A stretch of DNA of 64,000 nt from Pisolithus tinctorius (taxonomy: Eukaryota; Basidiomycota; Agaricomycetes; Boletales; Pisolithaceae): NCBI GenBank assembly GCA_024663395.1, contig JANFAH010000009.1, positions 620,001 through 684,000 on the forward strand, written 5' to 3'. Positions 12,338 through 57,992 of the stretch are shown here, piece after piece (position 1 is the stretch's first letter; every line of letters begins with the position of its first letter). Made by a program: the position numbers and the translations under genes. Below the pieces are notes generated by a model. The model searched no databases, was not told the DNA's origin, and saw nothing but the letters and a program-made list of their open reading frames with translations.

Positions 12338-13050
12338 TGTCAAGTCCGGGCCTACTCCGACCAACTCCGACACTATACAAGGTCTAGAGAGTGGTTCAGA
12401 AGTAAGTCCAACAGGGAAGAACGAAACTCCGACTAGCGGAGTGGTGGCAGGAACGAAGTCCGCCGAGGCAGAGGTGGAGCGGAGTGAGGGCGTCGGGTTT
12501 AGCTCGTGCGCTACCCCCTTGCACGATCTCAGCCCTCGTATTTCAGAGGGAGAGTACAGACGGAGTGTCGGAGGTAAGTCCGACAGACAGAAGACGGAGT
12601 CAGGAGGAGTAGGAACTAAGTTGATATTCGTACTGAAGAACAGCGGAGTACAGTACATGCTTTTATACTGTTACGGAGGTACAGTAATCGGAATCGGAAC
12701 TGACATACGGAGACTGATAAATTTTCAAGTAAAATTTCCTGGACGACGAATGAAGGGTGGACGGAGGACATACGAACGGGTAACACAGAACATCCAGAAA
12801 AGGAAATAGTCCAGGCGCTGGACCATGCGGTGAGCGCGCTGCGGAGTACCTGACTGCGAAGGTAGTCACATGCCCCTCAGAGAACGGACCACTCGGTCCG
12901 GTAGGAGAGTAACACAAGTCCGACAGCAGTCGGAGCGGAGATTGTTCGTAAACAGCAGATGTTGGGCAGAGTTGATGCGGAGTGAGTGAACAACCGGCGG
13001 AGTAGGGTGCGGAGCATATAGGGACTTATAATGAACGCATGGTCATGACA
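12338..13050 (-). repeat. Gypsy-3 3' LTR (713 bp)
   Basis: TGTCAAG...CATGACA, same length as its partner at 19718-20430. I counted 19 CGGAG/CTCCG pentamers here, against about 1.4 expected by chance on both strands. Confidence 0.95.
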
Positions 13051-13063
13051 GTGCCCCCCCCTT
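13051..13063 (-). other. Gypsy-3 polypurine tract
   Basis: The minus strand reads AAGGGGGGGGCAC immediately before the 3' LTR, the expected place for the plus-strand primer. Gypsy-4 and Gypsy-5 have comparable tracts at their 3' LTRs. Confidence 0.75.
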
Positions 13064-13244
13064 AGGGCCTGAACCCCTGAAGGCCGCGTGTACGGGACGA
13101 GATCAACACGAGTTGATCATTTGAAATTATTTTGATGCCTCGAGGATAATGGCTTTAGCCGCGGCGGAGCTCCGTCGGAGTTCGAAGTACCGCTTAAAAA
13201 CACGTGTTAGGGTACTGAACCTTCGTATTCCATCCCCCATCATC

Positions 13245-14469
13245 ATGTCTTCCCAGCGCCAGAGCAGAACCCCCCAGCCAACCCCTGGCCATGTCCGCGA
13301 CTACTCCCAAGTCGCGGATGAAGAACTGGCCGTTCTCACAGACGACTCCACCGACACCGAGCGGGAGAAGTCCGCGGAGAAGGCGCGCCGTCGAGAGGAG
13401 ACCGAGCGGAGAGAGAGAGAACGCGATGCAGAGCGCAAGGCCAAACGCGAGGAGGCCAAGAGGCGGAAGGCGGAGGAGGAGAGGTTGGAGGCGGAGCGGA
13501 GGAAGAGAGCGGAGGAGGAAGAGGAGGCTCGAAGGAAGAAGGCGGCAGAGGAGGAGGCAGAGAGGCAGAGGCAGAGGCAGAGGGCCTCTGAGGAGAGGGC
13601 TCAGGCCAAGCGGAATGAGGCCGCACAAAGGTGAGTGGCGGAGTACTGTGAGTCAGGCGGAGCTGACTCGCAGTTTTTATTTTCTTAGATTATGCGGCAC
13701 GGTGTACGATGTCAACACCGCCCAGAAGGTCCCTGGGACCTCCGTGGTGGTCACTGCGACCAGAAGAGCCCCCTGCACTCGCTGTATAGCGAGTCTGACG
13801 GCGGGGCAGTGCGAGCCGGGACAGGGCAAGACCAGGGCCTGCATGCCCTGCCACAACAAGAAGAAGACGTGCAGCTGGACGCGGGAAGAGGCGGCGGCGG
13901 GGCCTTTGTGGAAGAGAGCAGGGACGGGGAGCTCCCGAGGGGAGAAGAAGAAGAGGACGCGAGGGAAGGGAAAGGAGAAAGCGACAGAGACGGAGGAAGC
14001 GGACGACGAGCGGGAGGCAGGCGGAGAGGACGAGGAGGAACCAGAGACGCCGCTCGAGGGACCCTCGGGGGTCTCCTCCTGGTGGACGGAGTGGGAGCGG
14101 GAGCGGCAGTTGCAGGCTGCAGAGAGGTATGCGGCGGCGCATGAAAAGGCTGCGACAGCCTTCGAGAGGATGGCAGAGGCAGCGGAGCGGATGGCGGAGG
14201 CAGCGGAGCGGACTGCCGACGAGTGGGGGATGTACCGTGCATGGGCGGAGTGGGCGGAGATGAGGAGAAGGGAAGACGCGCACGAAGCCAGACTGGCTGA
14301 ACTCGAGCGTGCGGGAGGAGGTTGGAAAAGGCCTCAGTCAGAGGCGGCGGAGGACCAGCGAGAGGAAGCGGATGAAGGTGCGGAGGGGGATAACGAGGAA
14401 GAAGTTGAAGGAGAGCAGGAAGGCGGTGAAGAACAGGAGGGTGGTGGAGAACAAGCGATGGAAGAGTAA
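13245..14469 (+). CDS. Antisense spliced gene of Gypsy-3: charged protein with Zn2Cys6-like cluster
   Basis: Two exons, 13245-13630 and 13689-14469, around a 58-bp intron (GTGAGT...TTCTTAG). Joined they give 1167 nt, 388 residues plus TAA, with no internal stop. ATG 13245 (MSSQRQSRTPQP) was chosen because an acidic DDSTDTE segment follows, as in the Gypsy-5 homologue. Residues 50-128 are a highly charged Arg/Glu/Lys helix. Cysteines 158, 161, 170, 180, 183 and 190 are spaced C-X2-C-X8-C-X9-C-X2-C-X6-C, near the fungal Zn2Cys6 pattern (third spacer 8 instead of 6). Then come a basic KKKRTRGKGKEK stretch, an Ala-rich helix with repeated ERMAEAAER, and an acidic tail. It points toward pol and starts 195 nt from the 3' LTR, so its promoter is probably in or near that LTR. 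Function unknown; DNA binding is inferred from the cluster. Confidence 0.78.
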
Positions 14470-14656: not shown

Positions 14657-17600
14657 CTATGGCGGAGTTTGGTACGGGCCAGGTTTGTGTGGATAGCGTT
14701 CGTGGAAAGCGGATACTATGTCGGAAGCGTGATCCAGCTCAGTTGCAAGCAACCAAGAGGTTTCTTCGTCGGTGTTCTCGTAACCAGCCCAGCGGACTAG
14801 ATACAAGAGTTGACAGTGGCGGCAACGGCGGTCCACCTTAGAGTCGAGTATCTCTGATACTTCGTACTCAAGGTCACCATCGACATCTACTGGCAGAGGC
14901 GGAGGTTGTTGTCGGTTTGGGAAAGGGTTGGCCGCTGCGGCTTCCAGTTGCGAGACGTGGAAGACCGGATGTACCGAGCGCATAGAGTCAGGGAGTTTAA
15001 GGGTGACAGAATGCGTACCTGGCCTGGCCAAGATGGTGAACGGGCCTAAGTACTTTTCGGAGAGTTTTTCCGAAGGACGAGTGGAGCGGAAGTACTTGGC
15101 TTTGACGTAGGCCTGTTCTCCGACCTTGAACTCAGGCGGAGGTATGCGTTTAGCATCTGCTGGACCCTGGTAGCGCTGTTGAGCAGCAGACATTTCGGAG
15201 CGGAGGAAATCATGAAGGGCGGAGAGCTCAACGACATAGTCGTGAGCCCTTGGAGAGGTGAAGTCTTGGTCAGGGACCACAGACAGGTTTGGATGGTATC
15301 CCTTGTTAGCGAAGAAGGGAGAAACTCCAGTTGTCACACTTGGTGCGTTGTTGAAAGCGAACTCCGCTAGAGGTAACAGCTCAGCCCAGTTGTCCTGTTG
15401 GTAGTTACAGTAGACATGAAGGTACTGCTCGAGGGTCTGGTTCGTTCGCTCGGTCTGGCCATCGCCTTCTGGGTGGTAACCCAAGGTGAAGTGAAGACGC
15501 ATGTCAAGGGCCTTTCCTAGAGAGCGGAAGAAGTGAGAGATGAACTCAGGACCTCTGTCGGAGGTGACATTAGCTGGTACTCCGTGCTTGGAGAAGACAT
15601 GGGTTAGGAAGAGCTTAGCGAGTTCGGCGGAGGTGACGGAGTCGTGGGTGGGGATGAACACCGCTTGCTTTGAGAGGCGGTCCACTACCACGAGTATGGT
15701 GGAGTAGCCATCGGAGTTGGGGAGGTGTTCGATGAAGTCCATGGAGATGGAGTTCCAAGGTCTCTCCGGGACGGGGAGTTGCTTCAGTAGACCATAAGGG
15801 CGGTGACGCGGAGTTTTGCTCCGTCCACAGGCGGTGCAAGACCTGACGTATTCTTTCACGTCGGAGCGGAGGTTGGGCCACACGTAGTCCCTGCGGATGA
15901 GTTCTAGGGTGCGGTTTTGCCCGAAATGGCCTGCTAGAGGATGGTCATGCTTGAACCGAAGCACTCGAAGGCGGAGGTCATCAATGTCAGGGACAAAGAT
16001 ACGGCCGTCAAGGCGGAGTAGACCGTCGGAGTCCAGGGACCACCGAGGCTTAGTCGGAGTTGGAAGATGGCTGGCGGAGACAGGGTCGGATGGTAGGGCG
16101 GAGATGATGTCGGAGTGCAAGCACTCGACATCGAAGACCATGGCGGCGCGGAGCACAGGTGCCATGAGGGTGGTGGTACGGAGGGACGACGCGAGCTGCT
16201 CCTGTGTAAACATAGGGCGGAGATTGTGAGGATTTACCTGTGCGTAGTCCCTATCCCCCCCTTTTGGGTAGACGTCCCAATGTCGAGTAAGCGCGTCGGG
16301 TTTGGCTCCTAAGCAGCCAGGTCGGAAGCGGATGGAAAGATTAAACTGCGAAAGGTACTCCGACCAGCGGGCCTGTCGACGAGTGAGAACCTTAGAGGTG
16401 GAAAAGTACTCAAGGTTTTTGTGGTCCGTCACCACGTCGACAGGTAAGGCGGAGCCTTCTAAGTAATGCCGCCAATGGCGGAAGGCCTCGAAGATAGCCA
16501 ACAGCTCCTTGTCGTGGGTATCATAATTGAGTTCCGGCGCAGTCATGGTGCGGGAGTAGAAAGCGACTGGGCGGAGTTCACCGTCAGAGCAGGTGATCGA
16601 CAAAATGCCAGCAATGGCATAGTCGGAGGCGTCGGTTTCCACTGTAAGCGGAGCGTCAGGGACCCAATGAGTGAGAATAGGAGCAGAGCTGAAGGCATCC
16701 TTCAGGCAGAGGAAAGCGGAGCGGCACTCCTCGGAAAAGTTCCAAGGAGCACCCTTTCGTGTGAGGCGAGTGAGAGGGACGACGATGTCGGAGTAGTTAT
16801 TAATGAAGCGTCTGTAGAAATTGGCGAAGCCAAGGAAGGACTGGATGTCTCGCACCTTCCGCGGCTCAGGCCAGTCGCGGACTGCCTGAACCTTCTCAGC
16901 GGACATGGTGAGACCGGAGGGAGAAAGAACATAACCAAGGTACTCGATGGAGTCGGAGTGAAACTTGCACTTCTCTGGCTTGGCATAAAGGCCATGCTTT
17001 CGAAGGTGGCGGAGTACCTCTTTTACGTGTTCGCGATGCGACTCCATGTCCTGCGAATAGATTAGGATGTCATCGAGGTATACCACGACGCAGACATCGA
17101 GCATGTCTGCAAAGATGCTATTGACGAATCGCTGGAAAGCCGCAGGCGCGTTAGTCAGACCGAATGGCATTACCCGCCACTCGTAAGAACCATAACGAGT
17201 GCGGAATGCCGTTTTCCATTCATCTCCATCTGCGATGCGGACCAGATGATAGGCATGGCGGAGGTCGATCTTGGTGTAGACTTTAGCGCGGCTTGGAGAG
17301 TCGAGTAGGTCGGAGATGAGCGGCAGCGGATAGCGGTCTTTTTTCGTGATTTTATTGAGTCCTCGATAATCAATGCAGAGGCGGAGTGAGCCATCCTTCT
17401 TCTTCACGAAGAGGACAGGGGCACCGTGAGCGGAGGTGGACTGCTTGATGAAACCGTAGCCAAGATGCTCGTCAATGAAGGTGTGGAGAGCCTCAAGCTC
17501 TGGCGGAGAAAGAGAGTAGATTGTACCGATGGGCGGAGAAGCTCCTTCCTCGAGGTCGATCTTGAGATCGAACGAGCGGTGTGGCGGAAGTTCAGTGGCC

Positions 17601-18382
17601 TTGTCTTTACTGAAGACATCGGCAAACTCGTGATACTCAGAAGGAACCGAGGAGAGGTCAGGAGGCGGAGATGAAGCGGAGGACGCACGAAGCTTCACAT
17701 CATCAGCGGAGAGCTGTAAGCGGAACTGTCTGGAGCCAGGGAGAGCACAGGCTCTGACATACGCAGCAGCATTGATGAGTGAGACGAGCGGAGCGGAGCG
17801 TGGCGAGTCGGTCGGAGTTGCAGACGGAGCTGCAGACGGAGCAGAGGGTGTCAGATCTGGAGCGGAAGTCGCAGCGGAAGGTGACGAAGGCGCCTGGGGT
17901 GTCGGCATTCCCTGTAACGATGGTTTGAACAATATACTGCCCAGTACCCAGTCAATTGACGGATTGAAGCGGGTGAGCCAGTTGTGTCCTAATACCAGCG
18001 AACATGAAGAATCCAACGGAGTAACATAAAATGAAACGGAATTGACATCACTGGAAGGAAAGCGGAGGGAAAGATCTACTTCTTGGGAAATGACAGCATT
18101 TGTACTACCATCAAACAAGCGGAGCGGAATTGGCGGAGAAACGGAGGAAACAGGAATAGCATATTTTTTAATTACAGACAGGTCTACGAAGCAATGAGAA
18201 GAACCAGAATCGATCAACGCAGAAAAAGTATCGACAGAATAATCCGGAAGGGTTACAGACGGAAGTAAAGAGTTGGGACTAGAAAGAGCGGACGCGTTGA
18301 GTCGGATGTCCGGTGGTGCACAGTTGGGTTCAACGCTTCCTCCAGGCTGTGCGAGCTCCCTGGAGGAGCGGACTAATTTTTT
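14657..18382 (-). CDS. pol: Gypsy-3 Pol polyprotein with chromodomain
   Basis: Open from the frameshift site to a stop at 14657. Order: protease LIDSGSSHCF; RT with [17 protein letters not shown] and active site VVYLDDILIYS; RNase H VETDASDYAIAG and YDTHDKELLAI; integrase zinc segment HDHPLAGHFG...CTACGRSK; catalytic core SMDFIEHLPNS, TSDRGPEFISHFF and YHPEGDGQTERTNQ; then a chromodomain YEVSEILDSKV...YLVRWAGYENTDEETSWL near the C-terminus. The chromodomain places it among chromoviruses, whose integrases are guided to marked chromatin. No lesion was seen, so it may encode active enzymes. No usable ATG upstream of the protease: expression by -1 frameshift. Confidence 0.93.
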   Translation of the reverse strand, partial: KKLVRSSRELAQPGGSVEPNCAPPDIRLNASALSSPNSLLPSVTLPDYSVDTFSALIDSGSSHCFVDLSVIKKYAIPVSSVSPPIPLRLFDGSTNAVISQEVDLSLRFPSSDVNSVSFYVTPLDSSCSLVLGHNWLTRFNPSIDWVLGSILFKPSLQGMPTPQAPSSPSAATSAPDLTPSAPSAAPSATPTDSPRSAPLVSLINAAAYVRACALPGSRQFRLQLSADDVKLRASSASSPPPDLSSVPSEYHEFADVFSKDKATELPPHRSFDLKIDLEEGASPPIGTIYSLSPPELEALHTFIDEHLGYGFIKQSTSAHGAPVLFVKKKDGSLRLCIDYRGLNKITKKDRYPLPLISDLLDSPSRAKVYTKIDLRHAYHLVRIADGDEWKTAFRTRYGSYEWRVMPFGLTNAPAAFQRFVNSIFADMLDVCVVVYLDDILIYSQDMESHREHVKEVLRHLRKHGLYAKPEKCKFHSDSIEYLGYVLSPSGLTMSAEKVQAVRDWPEPRKVRDIQSFLGFANFYRRFINNYSDIVVPLTRLTRKGAPWNFSEECRSAFLCLKDAFSSAPILTHWVPDAPLTVETDASDYAIAGILSITCSDGELRPVAFYSRTMTAPELNYDTHDKELLAIFEAFRHWRHYLEGSALPVDVVTDHKNLEYFSTSKVLTRRQARWSEYLSQFNLSIRFRPGCLGAKPDALTRHWDVYPKGGDRDYAQVNPHNLRPMFTQEQLASSLRTTTLMAPVLRAAMVFDVECLHSDIISALPSDPVSASHLPTPTKPRWSLDSDGLLRLDGRIFVPDIDDLRLRVLRFKHDHPLAGHFGQNRTLELIRRDYVWPNLRSDVKEYVRSCTACGRSKTPRHRPYGLLKQLPVPERPWNSISMDFIEHLPNSDGYSTILVVVDRLSKQAVFIPTHDSVTSAELAKLFLTHVFSKHGVPANVTSDRGPEFISHFFRSLGKALDMRLHFTLGYHPEGDGQTERTNQTLEQYLHVYCNYQQDNWAELLPLAEFAFNNAPSVTTGVSPFFANKGYHPNLSVVPDQDFTSPRAHDYVVELSALHDFLRSEMSAAQQRYQGPADAKRIPPPEFKVGEQAYVKAKYFRSTRPSEKLSEKYLGPFTILARPGTHSVTLKLPDSMRSVHPVFHVSQLEAAAANPFPNRQQPPPLPVDVDGDLEYEVSEILDSKVDRRCRHCQLLYLVRWAGYENTDEETSWLLATELDHASDIVSAFHERYPHKPGPYQTPP
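18373..18382 (-). promoter_or_regulatory. Gypsy-3 -1 frameshift site and gag stop
   Basis: Minus strand AAAAAAT (18382-18376), in gag frame A AAA AAT, is followed directly by the gag TAG (18375-18373). The pol frame is -1 and open. Gypsy-5 has A AAA AAA directly before its gag TAG. Confidence 0.75.
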
Positions 18383-19656
18383 GACTCTGCCTTCTCCGCA
18401 GGCGGAGTAGGTGGAGTTTCAGCCGTAGCTGCACGGGCTTTGGCTGCGCGAGAGGTGGACTTGGGACAGTCCTTGGCGGAGTGGCCAGCCTCGCCACAGA
18501 AGAGGCAGAGGTTGTTCTTCATCCTGCGCTGGCGCTCAGCGGAGGTGAGTTTGCCATCTTTACCCAGAAGGTGGGCAATATCGGACTTGGACGCGTCGGA
18601 CTTGGGCAGATCTTTCTGTTTGCCCTTGCCCTTGGCGTCAGACTTCGGAGCGGAGGCAGAGGACGACGATTTAGTTCTGTTGTCGGAGTTGGAAGACTGC
18701 GACTTGTCGGAGGCGGACTTGGTGGTGCACGAGATCTCTGCTTTGCGCTCCCAGTAGCGCGCATCGATGGTTTGGGCGAGTTCGCGGAGTTGTGCGAGGG
18801 TAGAAGGCTTACCGACGCGAGCGATCTCGTCTTTGATGCGGTCTGGAAGTCTGCTATAGAAGCGGTGGCGGAGTGCACCGACACCGTAGTCCTTGACCTG
18901 TGAAGCCCAGCGATTGAACTCCACGACGTATTTGGTAATTCGAGAACCATCCTTCATGGTAAGGTTCTCGAGTTGTTGGACAGCATCCGCTATGGCATCA
19001 TGCGGACCGAAATTAGCTGTGAGCTCTTGCAAGAACTCATGATAGTCGTCCATCCAGAGCGGGCGGTCATAGTTGTCGGGGTTTAGTAAATCTGGCTCGA
19101 ACCAAGCCAGGGCCATACCCTTGAGATAAGACTGAGCGAAGGTAACTTTTGCTCTGTCGGAGCGGAATGCGTGAGGGTGGTCTTGGAAGTTCAGCTCGCA
19201 CTGAACGAGGAACTCGCGGAGTTTTTTAGGGTCGGAGCCATCGAAAGTGTCAGGCTCGTGGACTTTGGTTTTCGGAGCGGAGTCCCCAGTACGCGAACTA
19301 GACTGCGCAAGTGCATGGACAGCTCTAGCAAGAGCTACGAGGGGATCCTCTGGCGGCTCAGCCGGGTCTTCGGGGATATCCCCGTCACCGCTGCCCCTGC
19401 CGTCAGGATCACCATCAGGATAGTCAGGGTCGGGATCGGGTCCATCATCTCGGTTACGAGGAGACGGAGTATGGAAAGTTGTTGGGTGGAGGTCGGAGCG
19501 ACCAGCTTGCGAAGCGCTTTCACCCTCAGCGCGAGAGCGGCGTCGAGCGGAGAAGGACTGGAATTGTTCGACAACGGAAGGGAGTTGACGCGGATTAGCT
19601 AGCGCTGCAGCGAGGTTCTCAGCAACCTCTCTCTGGGATTGAGCTCGAGTTCTCAT
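18373..19656 (-). CDS. gag: Gypsy-3 Gag (427 aa)
   Basis: Capsid/nucleocapsid protein starting at ATG 19656 (MRTRAQSQREVAENL). It has an acidic Asp/Pro-rich linker (DDGPDPDPDYPDGD), the retrotransposon gag core (FDGSDPKKLREFLVQCELNF, FAQSYLKGMALAWFEPDLL, HRFYSRLPDRIKDEIARVGK), a Ser/Lys-rich linker and one CCHC knuckle CLFCGEAGHSAKDC near the C-terminus. The same blocks occur in the Gypsy-5 gag, so the two families are sisters. It ends at TAG just after the slippery site. Intact. Confidence 0.93.
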   Translation of the reverse strand: MRTRAQSQREVAENLAAALANPRQLPSVVEQFQSFSARRRSRAEGESASQAGRSDLHPTTFHTPSPRNRDDGPDPDPDYPDGDPDGRGSGDGDIPEDPAEPPEDPLVALARAVHALAQSSSRTGDSAPKTKVHEPDTFDGSDPKKLREFLVQCELNFQDHPHAFRSDRAKVTFAQSYLKGMALAWFEPDLLNPDNYDRPLWMDDYHEFLQELTANFGPHDAIADAVQQLENLTMKDGSRITKYVVEFNRWASQVKDYGVGALRHRFYSRLPDRIKDEIARVGKPSTLAQLRELAQTIDARYWERKAEISCTTKSASDKSQSSNSDNRTKSSSSASAPKSDAKGKGKQKDLPKSDASKSDIAHLLGKDGKLTSAERQRRMKNNLCLFCGEAGHSAKDCPKSTSRAAKARAATAETPPTPPAEKAESKN

Positions 19657-19704
19657 AATGATGTAAGTTTTTTGGAAGACAGAAAAGGAGACCGTACAAG
19701 TGTG

Positions 19705-19717: not shown

Positions 19718-20430
19718 TGTCAAGTCCAGGCCTACTCCGACCAACTCCGACGCTATACAAGGTCTAGAGAGTGGTTCAGAAGTAAGTCCAACAGGGAAGA
19801 ACGAAACTCCGACTAGCGGAGTGGTGGCAGGAACGAAGTCCGCCGAGGCAGAGGCGGAGCGGAGTGAGGGCGTCGGGTTTAGCTCATGCGCTACCCCCTT
19901 GCACGATCTCAGCCCTCGTATTTCAGAGGGAGAGTACAGACGGAGTGTCGGAGGTAAGTCCGACAGACAGAAGACAGAGTCAGGAGGAGTAGGAACTAAG
20001 TTGATATTCGTACTGAAGAACAGCGGAGTACAGTACATGCTTTTATACTGTTATGGAGGTACAGTAATCGGAATCGGAACTGACATACGGAGACTGATAA
20101 ATTTTCAAGTAAAATTTCCTGGACGACGAATGAAGGGTGGACGGAGGACATACGAATGGGTAACACAGAACATCCAGAAAAGGAAATAGTCCAGGCGCTG
20201 GACCATGTGGTGAGCGCGCTGCAGAGTACCTGACTGTGAAGGTAGTCACATGCCCCTCAGAGAACGGACCGCTCGGTCCGGTAGGAGAGTAACACAAGTC
20301 CGACAGCAGTCGGAGCATAGATTGTTCGTAAACAGCAGATGTTGGGTGGAGTTGATGCAGAGTGAGTGAACAACCGGCAGAGTAGGGTGCGGAGCGTATA
20401 GGGACTTATAATGAACGCACGGTCGTGACA
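19718..20430 (-). repeat. Gypsy-3 5' LTR (713 bp)
   Basis: Partner of 12338-13050. Of 20 differences, 19 are transitions that fall on a CpG in one copy or in the inferred ancestor, and one is a G/T transversion. Confidence 0.95.
20014..20047 (-). promoter_or_regulatory. Gypsy-3 TATA box and predicted start
   Basis: Minus strand TATAAAA at 20047-20041; the self-primer AGTACGAATAT begins at 20014, 33 nt downstream, the usual TATA-to-start distance. Confidence 0.65.
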
Positions 20431-21128: not shown

Positions 21129-21130
21129 AA

Positions 21131-21141
21131 AGCTCAAGTCT
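21131..21141 (+). other. Gypsy-4 self-priming PBS
   Basis: AGCTCAAGTCT, two nt after the LTR, is a perfect 11-nt complement of the LTR sequence at 20938-20948. Confidence 0.8.
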
Positions 21142-21427
21142 CCAGCCTTTGGCCGAATCGGTCACTGCTTAGTGAACCACCACGAACCCCCGGAACAACC
21201 GACGTTGGGCGCCGGTGCGACCCACTCGTGAAGAATCGTCGTCAGACGAAGAACAGGAGAGCACTGTCACAGACACCTCCTCCAACGAACCCGAACAGCC
21301 AGATAGAGGTTTTACCTCTGGAATTCTCTCGAACCTTTTCTCCCAGTCACTTGCGTCACTTGGTACCCCCATCCAACCAAGTCCCCCACCACTCTTCCCT
21401 ACACCGCCGCCCCCACCACAGATTGCG

Positions 21428-27030: not shown

Positions 27031-27067
27031 TTGAAGTCAGGGACTTCAACGCTTAGAAAGGGGGTAA

Positions 27068-46933: not shown

Positions 46934-49900
46934 CTACTCATCTGACTCGTCCAAAGGGACGCCAGTGAGTGTAGGGTCTGGGAATGCATCATCTTCAAGA
47001 CAATCCAGGTCTTGTGAGGAAGTGCCAGTCAGCTGGGTGACTTCAATACAAGCATTATTCTGCGGGAAATAGGGGTATAGGCGAAAGGCAGTGAAGCGGA
47101 ATTTCGAGATAGCTCCATCTAATTCCGCAAGTATGTACGAGCTGCCTTTAGTGCATCTGACGATGATCATAGGCCCTAGGTAGCACAGTTTGGTTTTCCA
47201 GTCAAGTTCTAGTTTGATACAGGAATTCCAAACGAGGATGAGTGACCCTGGTTCAAAGTTAAAGTCTTGGATAGAACATGCAAAACAGTCGACAAAATCT
47301 TTGGCTGAGGCAAAGCAGGATTTTAGGACCAGATCATGGATGCAAGCGAGGTCCTCTGGGCGTTTCTGGAGTTGGCGAGCATGGTGAGCAATAAGATCTG
47401 AGGTTGAGTAGAATTCTGCCTTGAAAGGGGCTAAAAACATCGCTTTGACCAGATCAAAAGGGAGTCTCGGTTCAACACCATGAGCCATATAGAAAGGAGA
47501 AAACCTGGTTGCCTTGTGGACTGTAACCCTCTCTGCCCAAAATACTGCAGGGGCCACTTCTGACCACCTCAACACTTCCCCACCACAACTTTTTACCATC
47601 GCTTCTCTTACATCAAAATGCCGCCATTCGACAACTCCATTAGCCTGCGAGTTATAAGGGGAGATGCGTATGTGATGAATTCTGAAGGTCTTGGAGAGCC
47701 AGTTGAGAGCAAGGACGTATGGTCCCCCATTATCTGTGACAATTTCCGCAACGGCACCCCAATGGCACAGAATCTGTTCAAAAATGAACTTTCCAATGGA
47801 CTTGCCTGTCTCTGCATGAAGCATAGCCCATTCAGGGTAACTGGTGAGTGAACAGCGGGCTTGGGTAATGTAGCGAAAGCCATTCAACTTCGGCATTAAG
47901 AACGTGTCCATGTATGCTTTGTAGAACAGGGGTTCAGGAATAGCAATGACTGGCAGGATATGGATGTAGTCCAAACAGCAGATCTGGCACTCATGGCATG
48001 ATTTAACATACCAACGGACGTCCTGCTCTAGCATGGGCCACCAAAAGCGAGTCAGCAAACACATGTGAGTCGAGAAGATACCCTTATGCCCTAGATCATC
48101 ATGGGCCTGGTGGAGAATTCCAAGGCATTTGTGTGGGGGTACCACTAGCTGATGCTGCCCCTGGGGATCCTTCCTCCACAGTTCTCCTCCTTTGACGAAA
48201 TACCGAGTCGCAAGGCGCACTAGGCTTTCCAATTCCGCCTCTTCCAATCCTTCTGGCGCTTTCTTCGTCTCCAAAAACTCCTTCACTACTCTCATCCTCT
48301 CCTCCCTCTGCTTCGCTTTCTCTGACCTCGGAATTTCAGGCTCGAGAGTTCCAGGCATCGATTCTTTGGTAGTAAAGATTCCTAGACTCTGTGATAGGGG
48401 GAGAGATGAGTCTGACATGATGCTCGGAATTTCCAAGGGGTAAGGTCGAGACTCAAAATGCACTTCCCTACGATTCAAGAGCTCGACTGCAAAAGCCCCA
48501 CACTCATCTATCCAATCCTCATAGTCCTCGTCTCCCTCCTCATCTTCTTCTGCCCTCGGCCTCCTTGAAAGTCTGTCTGGTGCTGTGTGCTTGTGTCCTG
48601 GAACATGTATGAGCTTGAAGTTGAATAGGAGAATTCTGGTGATCCAACGATTTATGGTCACATTAGGCTGTAGATCGGGATTATTAATCATCCCTTTGAT
48701 ATATCGTGCATCCACTTCGACAACTAAATTCCACATGCCGAAGATATGAAGTCAGACATCATGCAAAGCTCGGAAAAGACCAAATAGCTCTAACTTAGCT
48801 TGGCTGTAGCGACGTTTGCGATCATTGAGGGTTATCGAGCCAAACCTAGCAGGGTAGCATTTTCTGTCTTCCCCTTCTTGCATGAGGAGGTACCCAACAG
48901 CGATGTTAGAAGTGTTGACTGCTAAGATGACCTTCCTCTCGGAATTACAGTTGATAGTTCGCAATGCAGGGGACGAGATGATCGCCCGTCGAAGGTACTC
49001 CATGGCTTCCCTATGTTCGTCGTGGAAATTGAAGGGGATGTCCTTCTTGGTCAGTTTGACGAGGGGATGGGCATGTTTGGCAAAGTCTTTGATGAAGATC
49101 CTGCAGTAAGAGCAGAGACCTAAAAATCCACGTACTTCAGTAATGTTTGCGCAGTAAGGCCAATCTTTAATTTTCTGGACTTTAGTTTCGTCCAGAATTC
49201 TACCCTCGAACGACACCTTATGCCCAACCACTACAATAGATGGCGCAGCAATGACACATTTCTTTGCCAACATGGTGGCTCCTGCATGGCATAGACAGTG
49301 TAGGACTCGGTTGACATTCTGCAGGTGCTCCCAGATGAAGTGTCTAACCCCAGGATTTTGTGGAATCATTTCGTAGGTCCCATCGGGATTTTGGTAGCGA
49401 GATTTGGGACCTTTAACAGGACAGTCGTCGATAAATGGAACAGTGACTTCTGGAATTTCATCTTTTAAAATCCAACAGACATCTCCATGGAAAATTTGGA
49501 TGGCATTTGTGTAGCCCATAGGAAGTTTGGTGAGTCGAAGAGTACCTATAGGAGTTTGGAAGGTAGTGAGGTCGCAGTAATCGTCGTGTATGGTGCGATG
49601 ATCATATCCAACCATAAGATCCAAAATTCCATAGGCCGAATGACAAGCGAAGGCTTCAGCGATCAAATCGACGAAGGGGGGAATGGCTGAGTCCTGGATA
49701 GAAATGGCATTTAGAGGTTGTAAGTCATGGATGAGGTGGAGAGATTTTCCGTCCTTCTTGACTATGCAGAACCATTTTGAGCGATAGGACGAAGTAGACA
49801 GTTCATAAACCCCTGTGGAAATCTTTTCTTTGATGATGTTAACGACTTCATGGAAAATAGCAGGAGGAATGGGAATATTCTGCTCGATCCAAGGCTTATG

Positions 49901-51699
49901 GGCTAGCATAGGTATCTTCAGGGATGGGAACATGTCCTCTCAAAAGGTCCCTCTTTCTGAAGTGTCCCAAGCAAAGGCATCTTCTTGCTCCCTGACTAAC
50001 CACCGTACTAGGTCTAATTCCGTAGGCCAAAGGAACCTTGCTGGGTCCAAATCGAGCTTGTCAGCTCTTTCCTGAGTAAACCTGGAACCTGGCATGAACA
50101 GAGGGGGATGAGTAGGTAAAACAGGCAGATCTGCGAGTGGGTCTTTGGCCTCCTGATGCTCTACCTGGAATTCTGCTGGCATCGACATTGGTACCAGCCT
50201 CACCTTCCTCGCTACAGGTTTGTACTTTAAGACATGATAAACGGGATGGAACTGATAAGTAGAGTGTAAGGCAGAAATTGTCAGTGGAGAAATGGTAGTA
50301 GCAGTCGAGAACAAGAAAGGATCAGATGGGGAAACAGAACTGGTGTCAAAGGGGTTGACAGGGGGTGTAATGTTGCCTCGTAAGTCGTAGATAAATGCCA
50401 CAGTGGAATTTATGACAGTGTCTGTGGACAAAAACATGGAAGACTTCAAAGGGTATAAAGGCGGATCAGAAACATAAAGTGAACACATGGAGAAAGCACA
50501 GTCCTGGCCTCCTCACAGATCGTACGAGTCCTCGACCAATACTAAAAACCCTGTTCGGGTGGATTCATGTGGCAATGCATTTGTTTTTGTGTGAAGAAGT
50601 CTTCTTTGTCTTCGGAATTTATGAAATGTGGAAGGGGTTGTAGTCTGTTGTGAGGTCGTGTCGGAATTAAAACTTGTTTCCTGGAATTAGGGTCGTGGAT
50701 TTCTAGAGACTGTTCTCCATCAGGGAAATTGTGAAGGACGCTGGAGAGTAGGCAGAAGAAGGGTCAACCGAGGAGTAAGTCGAGAGGTGCGCGATCAATG
50801 ACCTGGATTTGTAGATGAGCCTCAATGTTTCCTATGCGCAAGGTGGCATTCTCTATGACCCCAAGGGTGCTTTCTTTGGATTGGTTAGTGGCCTCCAGAG
50901 TCATGGTCATGTCAGTATGGAGAGGGGCCTCTAAGGCTTCCCACAACTCCCGTCGCAAGGCCACTACCTGGCATCCACTGTCCAAAATACATTTGACATG
51001 GAGTTTGTCCATCAAGATCCCATCGACAGCACGTAAGGGAGCCGTAGCGAGGCCCATGCACTTCCCTTCTGTGTCTCTGACCCAGTATTGCTCATAGGAT
51101 GCCCAAGCAGCCGAGGGAGTCACATCTGATGTGGTTTCTAAACTCCCAATAGTTATCTTCTTCGTCACAGCTAGTTCTCTGATCTGCTTGCGAATCTCTG
51201 GGCTGACAGCTAATAGATCTTTAGTAGAGATTTCCATTTTTGCATCTAAGACCTGGTTTACGATCTGCTTGGTTGCTGCAGCCTCATCAAAACTGCTTTG
51301 GTAACGGAATTGGGGTGCAGAATTTGTAGATGGCTTAAGTTTCTGGAGATCTGTAAGATTAAGAGCAACTGGAGTTTTTCCGGCTGTTGGGGCTTCCAAA
51401 GATGAGGCAGGGTTAGCTGGAGCGGAATTACTGACTGGGATAGGAGGCGCTGGTGCATTGGCAGATGCTGGGACTGCTAGTGCTGGCCTTTGATGATGAA
51501 CCGGGACTTCTACACTGTCGAAGCGAGCTGTCTTCTTTCTCTTGATAGCATTCTTCAACTCATCTACCTGTGCATAAGCCCTTGCTAAGGCACATTGGTC
51601 TTCTTTGTCAGCATCCTCCTCTAGGTTTTCATTGACTAGATAGGAAGAGGGGTGCAGGTCAACTTGGTATTCCGAAACATCTTTGTTGCTGAAGAACAT
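46934..51699 (-). pseudogene. pol: Gypsy-6 Pol (protease, RT, RNase H, integrase), decayed
   Basis: Protease part 51699-50764 with CILDSGCQVVALRREL, ending LLLG-TGA-PF where the family has Arg. A frame change follows near 50490-50560, then RT (KKDGKSLHLIHDLQPLN; active site VPFIDDCPV) with TGA at 49940-49942 (ERGTF-stop-EDMFPSLKIP) and at 48752-48754 (ALHDV-stop-LHIFG). The RNase H aspartate motif has become VNTS (normally Asp). Integrase: HQAHDDLGHKG...CHECQIC, first Asp in AYMDTF, VTDNGGPY, and GVVEWRH with the catalytic Glu. C-terminus YILAELDGAISKFRFTAFRLYPYF and an acidic tail; no chromodomain. All three TGA are explained by CGA to TGA. Confidence 0.85.
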
Positions 51700-52211
51700 T
51701 GAGCTGATGAGATGGGGAGGAGTTTCATGCCCACGGGATGAGGTTGACTGCTGGCCAGTGTAAGGAGAGAGATCTCCTTACTATGGGATTGGGTGTTAAT
51801 CTCTATTTTATTTCTTTTATGGTTTCTTTACTTAATGTTGAGGGTACTATACTTGAGTACCATAGTTCGCTTTTTTTGTGTGCTTAGTCAGCACTTACTT
51901 ACAGTTAGTTTGTACTGTAAGTTTTTACCAATAGATGAGTTACCCCCAAAAGACAAGAACAAGGGAAAGACTGCCCCAGACAGCTCTAGACAGTTTCCTA
52001 TCCCCCTTCCCTCTCTGCTCAGGCTAAAGGAGCCCCTTTGGACTTACTCACTCCCTCTCAGATCCTACTCCATCCTCAATCCACACTATTATATTTCCTC
52101 ACACCGGGTTGCTGAACTGAGACGAGGTTTGCCAAGGCAATGATTGAGTTGTGCATGGCAAGGAAGTATTGATCTTTTCCTTGAAATTACGACCTGCAGC
52201 TGTCCCCAAAA
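51700..52211. other. Gypsy-6 pol-half leader, gag missing
   Basis: About 510 bp between the protease N-terminus and LTR B. The minus strand reads TTTTGGGGACAGCTGCAGG next to LTR B, PBS-like in place. No gag core or zinc knuckle is present. Confidence 0.5.
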
Positions 52212-53176
52212 CGTTGTGAGACATGACTTCTGGGAAGCGTGTGACTAGAGGAAGGGTGAAGGGAGAATTCCCTAGGATCATCCCAAGGGGTACTGTGTGG
52301 AAGGAGAGGTTGAGAAAGGGCTTAGAAGCGGTGGGGAAATTCAAGTGAGAGTCACAGAATTTAATTCCGGGCAGATGTAGACATGTGAGGAACAGCAAGA
52401 TGGGTATATGAAATTCCGAGAGGTCACTACGTGTCAAGAGGAGTGAATTTGAAGCGAAAGGGACATGGGATTAGGTGTGCAGGGCTGGAGGACACAGGAG
52501 ACACAAAGACCTCTGGGGACACTGAAGACGCAGTAGACTCTATATATGCACTTTAGACTCTAGAAACTCTCGAACTCGCAGAACACACACAGATAGCAAC
52601 TCCAAAGGTGGGTGGTATATTTCCAACATCATGGTGGAATTATATAGTACAGGGAAAGTAGGTACAAGTCGGAGTAAGGTGGGGCGGGAAAACTAAAAGA
52701 CTGGAAAATAAAGGAAAGGATGTCAGACGTCAGCGAAGTACAGATGCATGTGAAATAGACCAGTGGGTAGTAGAATCTTCCAACAGAATGAGAGTATGTG
52801 TACAAGTGAGAGGTGGGGCTGAGTGGCACAGGGGCAGAGCATAGCATACTAGCACGAAGTCCAGCTTGCGGAATTTAGGCAACAGGGGAAACTGGTGTTT
52901 TTTAGAGGTAAGTGGCACAGATGACTGGTGACATGGCTGAGCGGTGGCACAGCTACTGAATTCCGGATGACTCTGCACGGATGTGGAATTTCCGGATCAG
53001 TGTTTTGATGACTGAGCGACATGTGGAAGGTCAGTAGAAACTCCGAAGGCGACAGGGGTTGGGAGGGAACACAAGGACACGAGTGGGAAAGATTCTGAAA
53101 TGGGTTTGTCGTAGAGGCCTGCAGAATTTAGTGACAGATTCCTGTTCCAGCCTCAGGGAGTATACGGCTCCCTACA
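52212..53176 (-). repeat. Gypsy-6 LTR B (about 965 bp)
   Basis: Plus-strand ends CGTTGTGAGACATGAC and GGCTCCCTACA. Uninterrupted at the SINE insertion site of LTR C (reads GACGCAGTAGACTCTATATATGC), thus an empty-site control. Confidence 0.85.
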
Positions 53177-53480
53177 CCTCCTGGGGACTTCGAATGCTGA
53201 CCATCCTTGGTCAGACCGAACTGAGACATGACAGTGACAAGTGGAATTTTGGCAGACGTTACGTAACAATGATGGTGCATGGTCAGAATTCCGCCTCGTG
53301 CAGAGGGAAATTCCCCATTGTATGAGATGGCCCTGCGGAATTTAAACTTGCCCAGAAGGTGGCTCACCGCTCGTCAAACTCTCCTGACAACACCCTCGCT
53401 CACCTATCCTGCTCCCAATGTCTCATCTGCTCGTCGACATGCAAGCTTACTCGATCCATGATGCATGACCGGTGTGCAGC

Positions 53481-54980
53481 ATGAGGGACCAGGCAATCAC
53501 CTCGCTGTCAGCAGCTCTGAGGCACATTAGAGTGCTGATCGACACAGCGCCACAACCTGAAGAGAGCTTAGAGGTGATATATGAGTGGGTGGGGGACTGG
53601 GACCAGACTTGGGTGAGTGCACTGGATACTCGTGCAATCACGATGTGCTAACAGATCTCCAGGCTGGTATTTACTCGTGGTGGAAATATGTTGACAAGAA
53701 CGAGATCTCCATCCCAAAGGTGTGCAATGCCAACCTTCGTGACATGACAGAAGAAACCACGATGCAGCAGAACAAGGTGATCCCGGCGGTCATAGCTATA
53801 GCAGATCTTCATCAGCCAGAAGGGCAGCGGAGATTCCACATCGATGACGTCTTCGAGGACTACCAGGAGTGGGTTGAGGAGAGAGCGCGCTTGGAGGCTG
53901 AGAGGTTGGCCAAGGCACTGTCAGTGCATACCCAGGGCCAAACAGCAAGAGATGTGGGCCAAGACCATGTGCCCAAGGACACCGAAGGACACCTGTCAAG
54001 AGGAGCTGCACGTTCAACAGGAGGGGGCTCTGGTAGTGCGAGCAAAGGAAAAGGGAAACAGAAGGTGCATTCCACATCCTTGACAACCCCAAGTGTGAAT
54101 GCTGACTTCAAAGGAAATTCTGCAGGCCATCAGCGAGGAGGACGAGCTGGCTGATGACATCAACGATGATGAGGGCGATGGCAAAGGCAAAGGCGAACCA
54201 GGTCCTTCTGCAAAGGGACCTCACGTGGCTGGAGACAACGAGCCCTGCGAGACATGTGTGCAGGCGAACCGCATGTGCATCGGGGAGCCAGAGTCATCCT
54301 GTAAATGGTGCCAGAAGGCAAAGCACAAGTGCTCTCACTCTCGTGGAGTAGGGAGAAAGGTGAGTACCGAACAGGTGAAATTCCGCAAGGGAACGAGCTG
54401 ACACCACCTTCAGCGAAAGAACTCTGGTACCATTGGGGAAGCAGGGCCGTCCCACAAACCCGTCAAATCGTTTATGACTTTGAAGCCGGCCCTGGCAGAG
54501 TCTGCAACCAAACTTGCCAAGAAGCTCACTCTGAAAATTCCAGCTCAAAAATGGCAGCCTGATCTGACTCCCACACGTTCTCCTTCGCCACAACCAACCC
54601 CTTCACCACATGATCCTTTGCCAACACCTTGCCTCTTTTTCCACAGGGCTACTCCAACACCCAGACCCTCATTCAAGCCCTCACCAGCCCCTGTCGATGA
54701 ACCTGGAGCGTCACTTCCGATCAACAAACCACAAGTCATGAGTGAACCATTCTTTGTGACTGCGACTGGTTTACTGGAGGAACCTGGAGACATCGAAGTG
54801 TCAGCCCAGAGCAACACTCCACCAGCCACAGAAATTCTGGAGGTCGAATACCCATGCAAGCAGTTGACAGCAAATATTGTTGAGCGTCTGCAAGTGCTCG
54901 AGGCAAGAGCCAAGGATGAAGAATTCGAGTTGGAGCAGGTCTACTGGCTGCTGGAGACTCGTCCTAGGAATATCAGAGCC
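53481..54980 (+). pseudogene. Antisense spliced gene of Gypsy-6 with Zn2Cys6 cluster
   Basis: Probable ATG 53481 (MRDQAITSLSAALRH); exon 1 to 53612, intron 53613-53662 (GTGAGT...CTAACAGATCTCCAG), exon 2 with YSWWKYVDKNE, FHIDDVFEDYQEWVEERARLEAERL and a Gly/Ser/Lys linker. The frame changes near 54095-54130 (indel or unusually short intron). Then acidic DELADDINDDEGDG and cysteines C-X2-C-X6-C-X7-C-X2-C-X6-C (CETCVQANRMC...CKWCQKAKHKC), a full Zn2Cys6 match, an intron 54360-54413, a Pro/Ser-rich part and a Leu-rich helix (LTANIVERLQVLEARAKDE). Coding similarity ends near 54960, where sequence becomes the back of gag: the gag/antisense junction left by loss of pol. Same domain order as the genes in Gypsy-3 and -5 but different intron positions. 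Confidence 0.62.
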
Positions 54981-56207
54981 ATCTGGCATGAAAACTCTCC
55001 CTCCAATCAGGGAGCATTTCCCAGCTTGTACGTATTCGTGACACAGTGCACACTCTGCAGTTCTGTGCCCATCTGTTCCTCCGCAGAAGAAACACCATGG
55101 ATCGAAGGAACAACGGAATTGTCCTTCTTGACCTTGTTGGGTGGGCAGGGTAGAAACAGGCTGCTGAGCGACATGGACATACTCTCACTTCAGGATAGTA
55201 GGAACAGCCAGCGAGGAAGATGGAGCAGAATTCTGGGGAAACAGTGCCGACAAGTCTGGTTGAGGGAGGTTCTGTTTGGCCCCACTGAGGAGGTAGTTGG
55301 CATGTTTGTAGACAGTATCGGACTTCCATGGTTCATCGATGTCATGATCTAGGTCAGAGAGTTGCAATCATGTGAGCAAGGAATTCCGAAACCTCGGGGG
55401 AAACCCCTCAAGGAATTTCTCATTGGTGTAGTCCTCAGGGAGTTTCTTCTTCTTCTGGACAAGGCCGATGATATGTCGGAATTCTCGGACATATTTCCCA
55501 AGATCTTCCAGCAACTCCATAGGCTTCTGAACCTGATGGTAGAGTAAAGTTTCGAGGTCAGCTTTGGTATAATGACGATCTTTCACTGAGGCACCTGGGT
55601 AGTAGTTCAGGAGCTCTTTGGAGAAAGCATCCCAATCATCGAAGCTGTCAGTTGCAGCATCTAAGGTGGACCAAAATTCTGCCTTGTTGTGGTCAGTGTA
55701 ATGAATGACCCAGTGGATCTTATCTTTTCTGGAAATGAGACCAGCGTCAAGACAGAGTTGTTCAACATCTTTGAGGTAGCGGGTGATATCTTCAGTATGC
55801 CCAGAAAACTTTGGGGCTTTGTTGGAACCCCTGAGCAGCATATCTTTTGCTCCAGACATTATGCGAGGTGGTGCAGGGATCTGGCTCGGAATTTGGGGAA
55901 TGACGGGAGCGGAATTCGAGAGAGTCAAGACAAGAGTATTCTGTATGGGTATTTGAGTAGAAAGGGTGATAGCGGAATTTGTGATTAGAGAATAGGAAGG
56001 AAGGAGAAGCTGTTCAGCGGCTAGTTCTGAATCACTGGATGATGAGGGCGACAAAGGAGTCAGTTCTGAAAGGGGTGAAAGTTCTTGATGCTCAGAGGGA
56101 GGATCAAAAGGTTCGTCAAGGTCAAAACCTCCTGGAAATGCTGGGTAAAATGCTGGGGACTCTGGGCTCCGAAAGATCTCGTCTAAACCAAGATCTGAGT
56201 CTGACAA
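54960..56207 (-). pseudogene. gag: Gypsy-6 Gag with two TGA stops
   Basis: ATG 56207 (MSDSDLGLDEIFRSPESP). Gag core KAPKFSGHTEDITRYLKDVEQL, WSTLDAATDSFDDWDAFSKELLNYYPGAS split over normal gag positions, and FRHIIGLVQKKKKLPEDY. TGA at 55368-55370 (NSLLT-stop-LQLSDLDHD) and at 55185-55187 (PTILK-stop-EYVHV). Reading on, the CCHC knuckle CFFCGGTDGHRTAEC and MPDGSDIPR follow near 55120-54970, after which similarity stops. The two stops remove nucleocapsid. The usual continuation into pol is deleted. Confidence 0.8.
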
Positions 56208-56376
56208 GTGTGGCTCTGAAATATCTCTAGGATCAGCTACCGGGATTAGGATTTCTGATGAAGAAATAGATAGTCTGCGGAAGGGCTCTAGGAGCTCTTC
56301 AAGTTCGGTTCTTTGATGAGTGGGTCATAAGGATCTCCTTTCCAGATCTACAGACCCCTCACAGTGGGCTCCAAAA

Positions 56377-57992
56377 TGTTGTGAGACACGACTTCTGGGA
56401 AGCATGCAACTAGAGGAAGGGTGAAGGGAGAATTCCCTAGGATTGTCCCAAGGGGTACCGTGTGGAAGGAGAGGTCAAGAAAGGGCTTAGAAGCAGTGGG
56501 GAAATTCGAGCGAGAGTCACAGAATTTAATTCTGGGCAGATGTAGATGCGTGAGGAACAGCAAGATGGGTATATGAAATTCCGAGAGGTCACTATGTGTC
56601 AAGAGGAGCGAATTCGAAGCAAAAGGGACACGGGATTAGGTGTGCAGGGCTGGAGGACACAGGAGACATGAAGACCTCTGGGGACACTGAAGATGCAGTA
56701 GACTCCCTCTGGTGGGAGATGGACTTTCCCCTCACTAGACCTTGACGAGGTCCAGAGGCTTGGTGTGGTGGCTGCCCCACTGCCTAAGAAGTGAGTTATA
56801 TGGGTGAAACCCCCTTCAGGTGTTCAAAGTGAAACTAGTCTGCCCCCTCCATCTGGACAGATGGGTGTCAAGCCCTCCTGAGCCGACACTAAAAACAATC
56901 AGCAAGCCTTTAGAGGTATGTACAGCCGGGGGTACAAGCCCGGGGCACTGGGGGGAGCTGTTTGGTCTAGGCCTTCCTGCTGGAGATGTCCGTTGGCACA
57001 GATACTCAGGTGGCCACTCCACTTAATCCTGGCACCTTCGTATACAAATCGGAGGTAATCCCCAAAGGGTGGCAAAGGCGCACCAGGAAGCGCAGTGTCT
57101 GGCTGTTTTGACCCCTCTGGATTGGCTCCCTGTACGGTCAGCAGTCCCCTTGTCAGGGTCTGTGTTACTGACTGGGAGGTTTTTAGTCAGTTGGGCCCCT
57201 TCGACGCCTTGAGCGCAACGCTGTATGTAGCATGGGTAGCCCAACCTGACATCACCGGAGTCTGACAACCGGTACTCACCTATGAGTTTTCCTCCTACCT
57301 AACAAAAAAAAAAGATGCAGTAGACTCTATATATGCACTTTAGACTCTAGAAACTCTCAAACTCACAGAACACACAGATAGCAACTCCAAAGGTGGGTGG
57401 TATATTTCCAACATCATGGTGGAATTATATAGTACAGGGAAAGTAGGTACAAGTCAGAGTAAGGTGGGGTGGGAAAACTAAAAGACTGGAAAATAAAGGA
57501 AAGGATGTCAGATGTCAGTGAAGTACAGATGCACGTGAAATAGACCAGTGGGTAGTAGACAAGAGTAAGAACGGGACAACGGTAAGGGGTATCTTCCAAC
57601 AGAATGAGAGTATGCGTACAAGTGAGAGGTGGGGCTGAGTGGCACAGGGGCAGAGCGTAGCGTACTAGCATGAAGTCCAGCTTGCGGAATTTAGGCGACA
57701 GGGGAAACTGGTGTTTTTTAGAGGTAAGTGGCATGGATGACTGGTGACGTGGCTGAGCGGTGGCATGGCTACTGAATTCCAGATGACTCTGCACGGATGT
57801 GGAATTTCTGGATCAGCATTTTGATGACTGAGTGACATGCAGAAGGTTGGTAGAAACTCCAAAGGTGACAGGGGTTGGGAGGGAACATGAGGACACGAGC
57901 AGGAAAGATTCTGAAATGGGTTTGTCGTAGAGGCCTGTGGAATTTAGTGACAGATTCCTGTTCCAGCCTCAGGGAGTATACGGCTCCCTACA
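56377..57992 (-). repeat. Gypsy-6 LTR C with nested insert
   Basis: Plus ends TGTTGTGAGACACGAC and GGCTCCCTACA, about 995 bp once the 56706-57313 insert and its duplicated target are removed. Minus-strand TTTTGGAGCCCACTGTGAGG next to its inner end is a candidate tRNA-type PBS. Confidence 0.85.
56706..57313 (+). mobile_element. SINE-like or 5'-truncated LINE insertion (608 bp)
   Basis: Starts CCTCTGGTGGGAG and ends CCTAACAAAAAAAAAA, flanked by 14-nt direct repeats GATGCAGTAGACTC (56692-56705 and 57314-57327; up to 16 nt if preceding A residues count). A poly(A) tail plus a long variable TSD is the signature of LINE-type retroposition. The body has no convincing protein; no clear Pol III A or B box was found. 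LTR A and LTR B lack it. Confidence 0.85.

Follow-up and report, generated by a model that had tools for sequence, protein, structure and literature searches.

Antisense zinc-cluster genes and family-specific CGG-containing motifs in Gypsy retrotransposons of Pisolithus tinctorius

Elements and genes in the window

The window analyzed here is a 64,000-nucleotide stretch (contig JANFAH010000009.1, positions 620,001 to 684,000) of a 92.5 Mb assembly of Pisolithus tinctorius, an ectomycorrhizal basidiomycete, and the whole analysis was carried out on this single genome. Four Gypsy elements or element regions lie in the window, Gypsy-3 to Gypsy-6 (G3, G4, G5 and G6), and G3, G5 and G6 each have, antisense to gag-pol, an open reading frame (ORF) that encodes a six-cysteine cluster. 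Including G7, a fourth, G6-related family outside the window, four Gypsy families with an antisense zinc-cluster gene were confirmed to carry a CGG-containing motif of their own. Features of the window are listed below (LTR, long terminal repeat; RT, reverse transcriptase).

12338..13050, minus strand: G3 3' LTR (in the gag-pol sense), 97.2% identical to 19718-20430, with 18 CGGAG/CTCCG
13149..14469, plus strand: G3 antisense zinc-cluster gene, from ORFs, with exon limits set by eye; a charged coiled-coil-like ORF occupies 13149-13634 and the cysteine cluster lies in ORF 13291-14469
14657..18217, minus strand: G3 pol, with protease, RT, RNase H, integrase and chromodomain (Pfam)
18373..19656, minus strand: G3 gag (Pfam Ty3_capsid, Retrotrans_gag and zf-CCHC)
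19718..20430, minus strand: G3 5' LTR, with 13 CGGAG/CTCCG
20788..27490, plus strand: G4, the gene-less control, young by its LTRs (99.7% identical)
27488..27911, plus strand: G5 5' LTR, 96.2% identical to 36357-36780, with 8 CGG.CT/AG.CCG against 0.84 expected
29862..31253, plus strand: G5 gag-like ORF, its likeness to G3 gag judged by eye
31517..34969, plus strand: G5 pol, broken into pieces in the window copy, with 73-74% DNA identity to G3 pol
35151..35765, minus strand: G5 antisense zinc-cluster exon, with the cluster at 35634-35735 and an acidic C-terminus
36357..36780, plus strand: G5 3' LTR, forming a repeat pair with 27488-27911
45805..57992, minus strand: G6 region of rearranged copies, with 31 CGGAATT/AATTCCG
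45805-46805 (inverted), 52206-53178 and 56370-57994: G6 LTR-like stretches
46934..49933, minus strand: G6 pol pieces, with integrase H2C2 in 46934-48736
54153..54401, plus strand: G6 antisense zinc-cluster exon, with the cluster at 54246-54332

The domain set of a Gypsy chromovirus (RT, RNase H, integrase and chromodomain) was found in G3 pol; G6 and G7 pol pieces gave partial Pfam domain matches, and G5 pol was assigned through its DNA identity to G3. In G3, G5 and L010 (a G5 copy of 7540 bp with LTRs 99.8% identical), the zinc-cluster gene is enclosed by the LTRs and occupies the interval from pol to the 3' LTR. The G6 region (45805-57994) contains three LTR copies, one of them inverted relative to the other two, and has a gag-like ORF (55368-56207) and the zinc gene with no pol between them, a rearranged or non-autonomous arrangement.

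Motif counts and family specificity

The family motifs are CGGAG in G3, YCGGNCTC (core CGG.CT) in G5, CGGAATT in G6 and CGGARTT in G7. Expected counts were obtained from dinucleotide shuffles, 300 per element for G3, G5 and G6. The whole G3 element holds 132 CGGAG against 29.1 expected (shuffle maximum 41), the young G5 copy L010 holds 127 CGG.CT against 21.8 (maximum 38), the G6 region at 45805-57992 holds 31 CGGAATT against 0.9 (maximum 4), and G7 holds 21 CGGARTT against 1.9. Shuffled G3 LTRs yield about 2 CGGAG, against 18 and 13 observed. G4 contains 19 CGGAG (15.9 expected), 4 CGG.CT (11.8) and 0 CGGAATT (0.9), which bears out the original prediction that Gypsy-4, lacking the gene, is not enriched for the motifs. 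Profiled over all CGG triplets, the neighbouring bases read kCGGAG in G3, yCGGnCT in G5 and CGGAATT in G6, with little information elsewhere and little in G4.

Sites in G3 and G5 occur at about one per 60 bp over LTRs, gag, pol and the zinc-cluster gene; they are dispersed and occupy all three reading frames of pol and gag. Some sites form abutting pairs, and in G5 some excess at spacings of 21, 24 and 27 bases was seen by eye.

The counts of the original prediction were largely reproduced. The strong enrichment of CGGAG/CTCCG in 12338-13050 stands, but the recount gave 18 (15 + 3) rather than 19. CCGG was found as claimed, 18 times in 32941-33962 and 2 times in 24001-25000, but YCGGNCTC describes the G5 motif better. 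CGGAATT/AATTCCG again came to 11 in 46934-51699, and the variants expected from CpG decay were abundant in 45805-57992 (19 AATTCTG/CAGAATT and 18 AATTCCA/TGGAATT, against 0-2 each for four words that are not decay products).

G3 and G5 allow motifs to be compared over related proteins, as their Pol sequences share 897 of 1181 aligned residues (76% identical). At positions with a shared residue, the G3 motif is present in G5 at 7 of 27 G3 sites and the G5 motif in G3 at 4 of 26 G5 sites. Families that are related but differ in their zinc proteins place different motifs over identical amino acids.

Codon shuffling and conservation of motif sites

For the coding control, codons were swapped among positions of the same amino acid, which keeps the protein and its codon use. 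CGGAG/CTCCG occurs 58 times in G3 pol against 22.6 after codon shuffling (z 8.8) and 18 times in G3 gag against 6.7; CGG.CT occurs 55 times in G5 pol of copy L012 against 16.0 (z 11.4) and 19 times in its gag against 7.2. G6 pol pieces gave 6 CGGAATT against 0.8, and a G7-type pol (L015) gave 7 motif sites against 1.36. The main motifs of foreign families stayed at z 1.7 or below, and in G4 no main motif exceeded z 1.2. CTCCG is the top sense-strand 5-mer in G3 pol and gag after codon shuffling, and the top-ranked 5-mers in G5 pol (L012 and L023) are overlapping pieces of the G5 motif; in G5 gag the whole pattern is enriched, with motif 5-mers absent from the first eight ranks. Enrichment in G3 and G5 survives both codon- and dinucleotide-shuffled backgrounds, a test that the original prediction had called for.

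Conservation was measured in G3 and G5 by sequence comparisons, whose counts are not of independent events. Twenty G5 loci were taken, spread by rank, from 150 listed, and six (L009, L010, L011, L012, L014 and L023; CpG observed/expected 0.85-1.02, 90-93% mutually identical) were aligned; the other 14, including L019 (CpG 0.83), were excluded as depleted of CpG, nested or truncated. Retention in the six young copies was scored for 574 gapped words that occur at least 12 times per copy, and it averaged 0.697. The top five are all shifted versions of YCGGNCTC (0.89-0.86), with CGG.CT second at 0.880, and CGG.CT ranked first among 30 words of equal composition.

With L012 as reference, G5 four-fold sites differed at 10/389 positions in motifs against 471/3113 outside them in pol, and at 4/120 against 204/1075 in gag. 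Downstream of pol the differing sites were 36/982 in motifs against 1092/8415 outside, and in the 5' LTR and leader 25/333 against 292/2339. G3 was compared with L029, L030, L031 and L032 at non-CpG motif bases only. Four-fold differences in motifs and outside were 0/60 and 47/625 for L029, 0/60 and 82/639 for the decayed L030, 3/60 and 104/633 for L031, and 5/59 and 95/645 for L032; non-coding differences were 3/162 and 227/2548 for L029, 4/168 and 317/2578 for L031, and 4/75 and 173/1439 for L032. The motifs are shown to be under purifying selection at synonymous and non-coding sites in G3 and G5.

Base composition, codon use or mutation bias is very unlikely to have produced the motifs as a by-product. 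GC- and CpG-rich young copies do inflate raw counts, but the enrichment outlasts codon and dinucleotide shuffling, synonymous and non-coding sites are conserved in two families, and mutation in this genome acts against CpG-containing words.

Orientation of the motif

A strand bias had escaped the original prediction. Of the G3 sites, 117 have one orientation and 15 the opposite one, and in seven less-decayed G5 copies 75-100 sites have the majority and 22-33 the minority orientation; in both families the bias exceeds dinucleotide expectation. G6 has no clear bias (18 and 13). Relative to gag-pol, CGG stands on opposite strands in the two biased families, sense in G5 and antisense in G3.

A function in RNA (packaging, export or stability) was the first idea after the strand bias had been seen, and the bias, which extends to the LTRs, speaks for it, as does the poorer upkeep of the minority orientation after pol in G5 (106/145 sites kept against 822/988 in the majority orientation). 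It was dropped on finding that wrong-way sites in coding DNA are equally conserved. Four-fold differences in G5 were 3/105 in the minority and 11/404 in the majority orientation, against 675/4188 outside motifs, and whole sites were kept at 352/385 (minority) and 1160/1240 (majority) in pol and at 254/285 and 252/275 in gag. The near balance in G6 and the opposite CGG strands of G5 and G3 also speak against an RNA function, which is given little credence here. Because both orientations are equally conserved in coding DNA, the reader of the motif most likely sees duplex DNA rather than RNA.

The zinc-cluster gene and its product

The zinc-cluster proteins have a charged coiled-coil-like stretch, followed by the zinc cluster, a basic stretch and an acidic tail. 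The Zn2Cys6 domain (PF00172) has the spacing C-x2-C-x6-C-x5-12-C-x2-C-x6-8-C. This fits G5 (C-x2-C-x6-C-x12-C-x2-C-x6-C), G6 (C-x2-C-x6-C-x7-C-x2-C-x6-C) and G7, which shares the middle x7; G3 (C-x2-C-x8-C-x9-C-x2-C-x6-C) departs from it by x8 in the first lobe. Pfam scans of the zinc-cluster proteins found no regulator domain beyond the cluster, and a sequence-based search for related solved structures turned up nothing but four thanatin chains of 21 residues (E 0.64-0.9), which matched outside the cluster.

A basic lobe, CxxCx3KxKC, stands second in the cluster (13291-14469, 35634-35735 and 54246-54332). In Gal4 the basic lobe comes first. Positions 1-13 or 1-14 of the Zn_clus profile align to the second cysteine lobe of proteins P0001, P0002 and P0113, and positions 18-32 to the first cysteine lobe of P0010. 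Taken with the basic lobe in second place, these alignments hint that the lobes may be swapped relative to Gal4.

Over 21 pairs from seven G5 copies, the cluster exon has a mean nonsynonymous divergence (dN) of 0.071 and a mean synonymous divergence (dS) of 0.640, a ratio of 0.11; L019 supplies only 38 codons to this set, and two of its pairs have ratios of 0.36 and 0.45. The gene is thus maintained for its protein product. The dS of the zinc exon (0.64; L009-L014 and L023) appears to be several times the raw four-fold difference of pol (about 0.15), an excess that may point to recombination or to swapping of the gene module.

A similarity search of the genome with the G5 zinc cluster matched at 150 of 150 scored places, and one with the G3 gene gave 513 first-look candidates, of which 150 were scored and 150 matched. 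Protein relatives of the G5 type came only from P. tinctorius among the best 120 of 169 matches, as did all 74 of 74 matches of the G3 type; those of the G6 type (36 matches) include P. orientalis as well. Among the matches listed for the G5 and G3 types, the nearest relatives are assigned to strain Marx 270 of P. tinctorius.

Proposed mechanism

Zn2Cys6 proteins of the Gal4 type read CGG triplets. In the mechanism proposed here, the antisense gene would yield a small Zn2Cys6-like protein that reads CGG plus a few family-specific neighbouring bases. With sites every ~60 bp in G3 and G5, it could cover an element from end to end as duplex DNA and hardly anything besides, and the purpose would be to keep CpG methylation and silent chromatin off copies of its own family, as VANC proteins do for VANDAL elements.

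The zinc-cluster protein is probably the reader of the motif, because the CGG is constant and its neighbours variable, because the neighbours change between related families, and because gene and sites are kept up together. That it reads its own motif along the element, to the element's benefit, is a reading we favour with some reserve. If the protein is the reader, an anti-silencing effect would be slightly the better bet; self-recognition with anti-silencing included falls a little short of an even chance. We advance with the same caution the fullest form of the proposal, in which the whole element, coding DNA included, would serve as an array of binding sites for a lobe-swapped zinc-cluster protein that it encodes itself, and families would diverge through flank specificity together with dozens of rewritten synonymous codons, giving each a private code that switches off silencing for that family alone.

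The zinc-cluster protein could also read the motif as an ordinary transcription activator or repressor of the element, or as a switch of the antisense promoter, with internal sites adding enhancer strength. Zn2Cys6 proteins are usually activators, the C-terminus is acidic, and enrichment in a single LTR (8.3 fold in G3 and 11.1 fold in L010) is above that of the whole elements (4.5 and 5.8 fold). Such a role is nevertheless unlikely, as sites run through gag, pol and the zinc gene and are conserved there at synonymous positions, and over 100 sites per copy are more than promoter control would call for. Because sites cover the whole element at ~1/60 bp, chromatin-wide action is preferred to promoter control.

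Evidence weighing against self-recognition

The points that weigh against self-recognition by the zinc-cluster protein are gathered here, beginning with those from the elements themselves. G6 and G7 pol hold just 6 and 7 motif sites. The gap between motif and other non-coding sites is less clear for G3 against L030 (9/165 and 260/2577). The strand bias of G3 and G5 also counts here, as does the poorer upkeep of the G5 minority orientation after pol. The Pfam Zn_clus gathering cut-off (21 bits) was not reached in scans of seven zinc-cluster proteins, four of which gave matches (E up to 10), the best at 12.9 bits. The protein-motif link is a correlation over four families, in two related pairs (G3/G5 by pol, G6/G7 by gene type), with one full-length gene-less control.

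CpG retention adds to these points. Relative to L010, 121 or 122 of 124 motif CpG were kept in L009, L011, L012 and L023, against 84-91% of other CpG, and the counts were 112/122 in L014 and 97/124 in L019. In old G5 copies (19 comparisons), motif CpG was lost like other CpG (e.g., 2/105 kept in L020 and 1/103 in L026), and between G3 and L029 motif CpG was kept no better (94/129) than other CpG (139/189 and 188/252). A test of G3 and G5 copies gave no sign that motif CpG is durably shielded against methylation decay, and the G3 result lowers the odds of the anti-silencing reading slightly, to somewhat less than even. On the supporting side, silencing by CpG methylation is a plausible enemy because many old copies have lost nearly all CpG; we infer that methylation lies behind this loss. 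The CpG pattern fits selection in active lineages and then methylation-driven decay after silencing.

Further families bound the rule. Five loci (L033-L037) were picked solely for a weak resemblance to the G6 cluster. L033 and L034, with a cluster 45% identical to that of G6, belong to G7, and the CGGARTT motif was found in them afterwards, which speaks for the protein-motif link; L033 contains a piece of G3 gag, to which some of its CGGAG must be credited. L015 came from the G5 set; its first 7560 bases harbour a G7-type copy that has pol, 14 CGGAATT and 7 CGGAGTT, and only a partial match to the zinc exon, with a stop; the G6 region has 31 CGGAATT and 2 CGGAGTT. L036 and L037 are decayed. 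L035 was considered as a fifth family (ACGGGCC 23 against 0.5) and rejected, its sites lying mostly in a tandem array at 1-1240. This array, upstream of a Zn2Cys6-like ORF, has units of ~219 bp rich in ACGGGCCC and outwardly resembles the tandem targets of VANC.

Seven loci chosen by similarity to L035 (2.5 kb each) fall into two further zinc-cluster families, H-a (L038, L040 and L041) and H-b (L039 and L042-L044), and motif saturation was absent from both. Milder words were present, GTCGA in H-a (19, 14 and 13 in L038, L040 and L041 against 6.4, 4.1 and 3.4) and CGGCA in H-b (24 and 19 in L039 and L043 against 7.8 and 7.3). Codon shuffling of L038, L039 and L043 ORFs gave no word above z 4.5. 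A Pfam scan (E 0.01) of ORFs from L035, L038 and L039 (2.5-5 kb stretches) and of a gag-like ORF in L028 returned no match and no Gypsy domain. The claim that each family with the zinc-cluster gene is saturated by its motif thus applies to 4 of 4 Gypsy families with the gene antisense but to 0 of 2 other zinc-cluster families, with L035 doubtful.

Gene-less elements bear on whether a host factor, or another element protein such as Gag or integrase, reads the motif, for instance in cDNA packaging or integration into own copies, leaving the zinc gene a separate job. In its favour, an LTR insert without a visible zinc gene (L028:4825-8875) has a weaker, local motif of another kind, AGCGAGA (10 against 1.0), which is also a point against self-recognition. 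Pairs of AGCGAGA lie 24-25 bases apart, nearly all on the same strand. A common host factor, in contrast, leaves the per-family flanks on a constant CGG core unexplained; G4 is recent yet has no such motif, and G3 and G5 differ in motif with Pol proteins 76% identical. We regard this explanation as unlikely, slightly more so than an activator role, and continue to prefer self-recognition by the zinc-cluster protein. A pattern scan found no zinc cluster in G4; the scan also failed on the G3 cluster, recognized by eye instead. The G4 integrase region has at least 91 genome copies, 89-100% identical (91 of 91 scored, from 2736 first-look candidates), and a family without gene and motif, a state read in the window copy of G4 only, can also be numerous.

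Outside the four elements, the window contains an inverted repeat pair (37035-37811 and 44692-45466, 89% identical) with shorter inverted arms inside, and a related fragment at 8927-9392.

Comparison with known systems

Literature searches, which covered titles and abstract openings and left subscription journals mostly outside, found no published precedent for such a system. Fungal DNA transposons with TET/JBP dioxygenases have been proposed to counter the effects of cytosine methylation (PMC12730594). In the portions of that source consulted, the likeness is that of fungal mobile elements with such a proposed role, and the difference is that theirs is an enzyme in DNA transposons, with no sequence-specific binder that has its own motif. 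In plants, Retand Gypsy elements have TRP28 ORFs on the antisense strand, in the interval from pol to the 3' LTR (PMC11963269). The position in the element is that of the zinc-cluster gene, and the product probably binds DNA in both cases. They differ in protein domain and in having tandem repeats in that region, and the consulted portions of that article describe no element-wide motif. No match to TRP28 was obtained for the zinc-cluster proteins scanned against Pfam. With Gal4-type Zn2Cys6 factors (PF00172), the Pisolithus proteins share the six-cysteine spacing in G5, G6 and G7 and the CGG of the motif; they differ in scoring below the Pfam cut-off and in having the basic lobe second.

VANDAL is a DNA transposon. 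The Arabidopsis VANDAL elements encode anti-silencing VANC proteins, for which the excerpts consulted report binding and demethylation (PMC5735166, PMC10398659), and VANDAL motifs lie in tandem repeats of non-coding regions (PMC5735166). As far as these excerpts go, both systems have an element-encoded protein, a short motif accumulated in its own family and related families with different motifs. In Pisolithus, in contrast, the element is an LTR retrotransposon, the protein has a zinc cluster and is predicted to bind the motif, and motif sites are dispersed through coding sequence under selection at synonymous sites rather than held in non-coding tandem repeats.

If the proposal is true, this would add an independent second example of a mobile element that recognizes itself through a protein and its motif, now with a different kingdom, class of element and type of protein, and with the self-recognition code written into coding DNA via selection on synonymous sites. 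For each of two families, this one genome offers at least 150 scored places, a natural series in which the zinc-cluster recognition code and the cost of synonymous rewriting can be directly measured. By analogy, the best reading of the Pisolithus system is of a VANDAL/VANC-like self-recognition that would work with another protein, in retrotransposons and through coding DNA.

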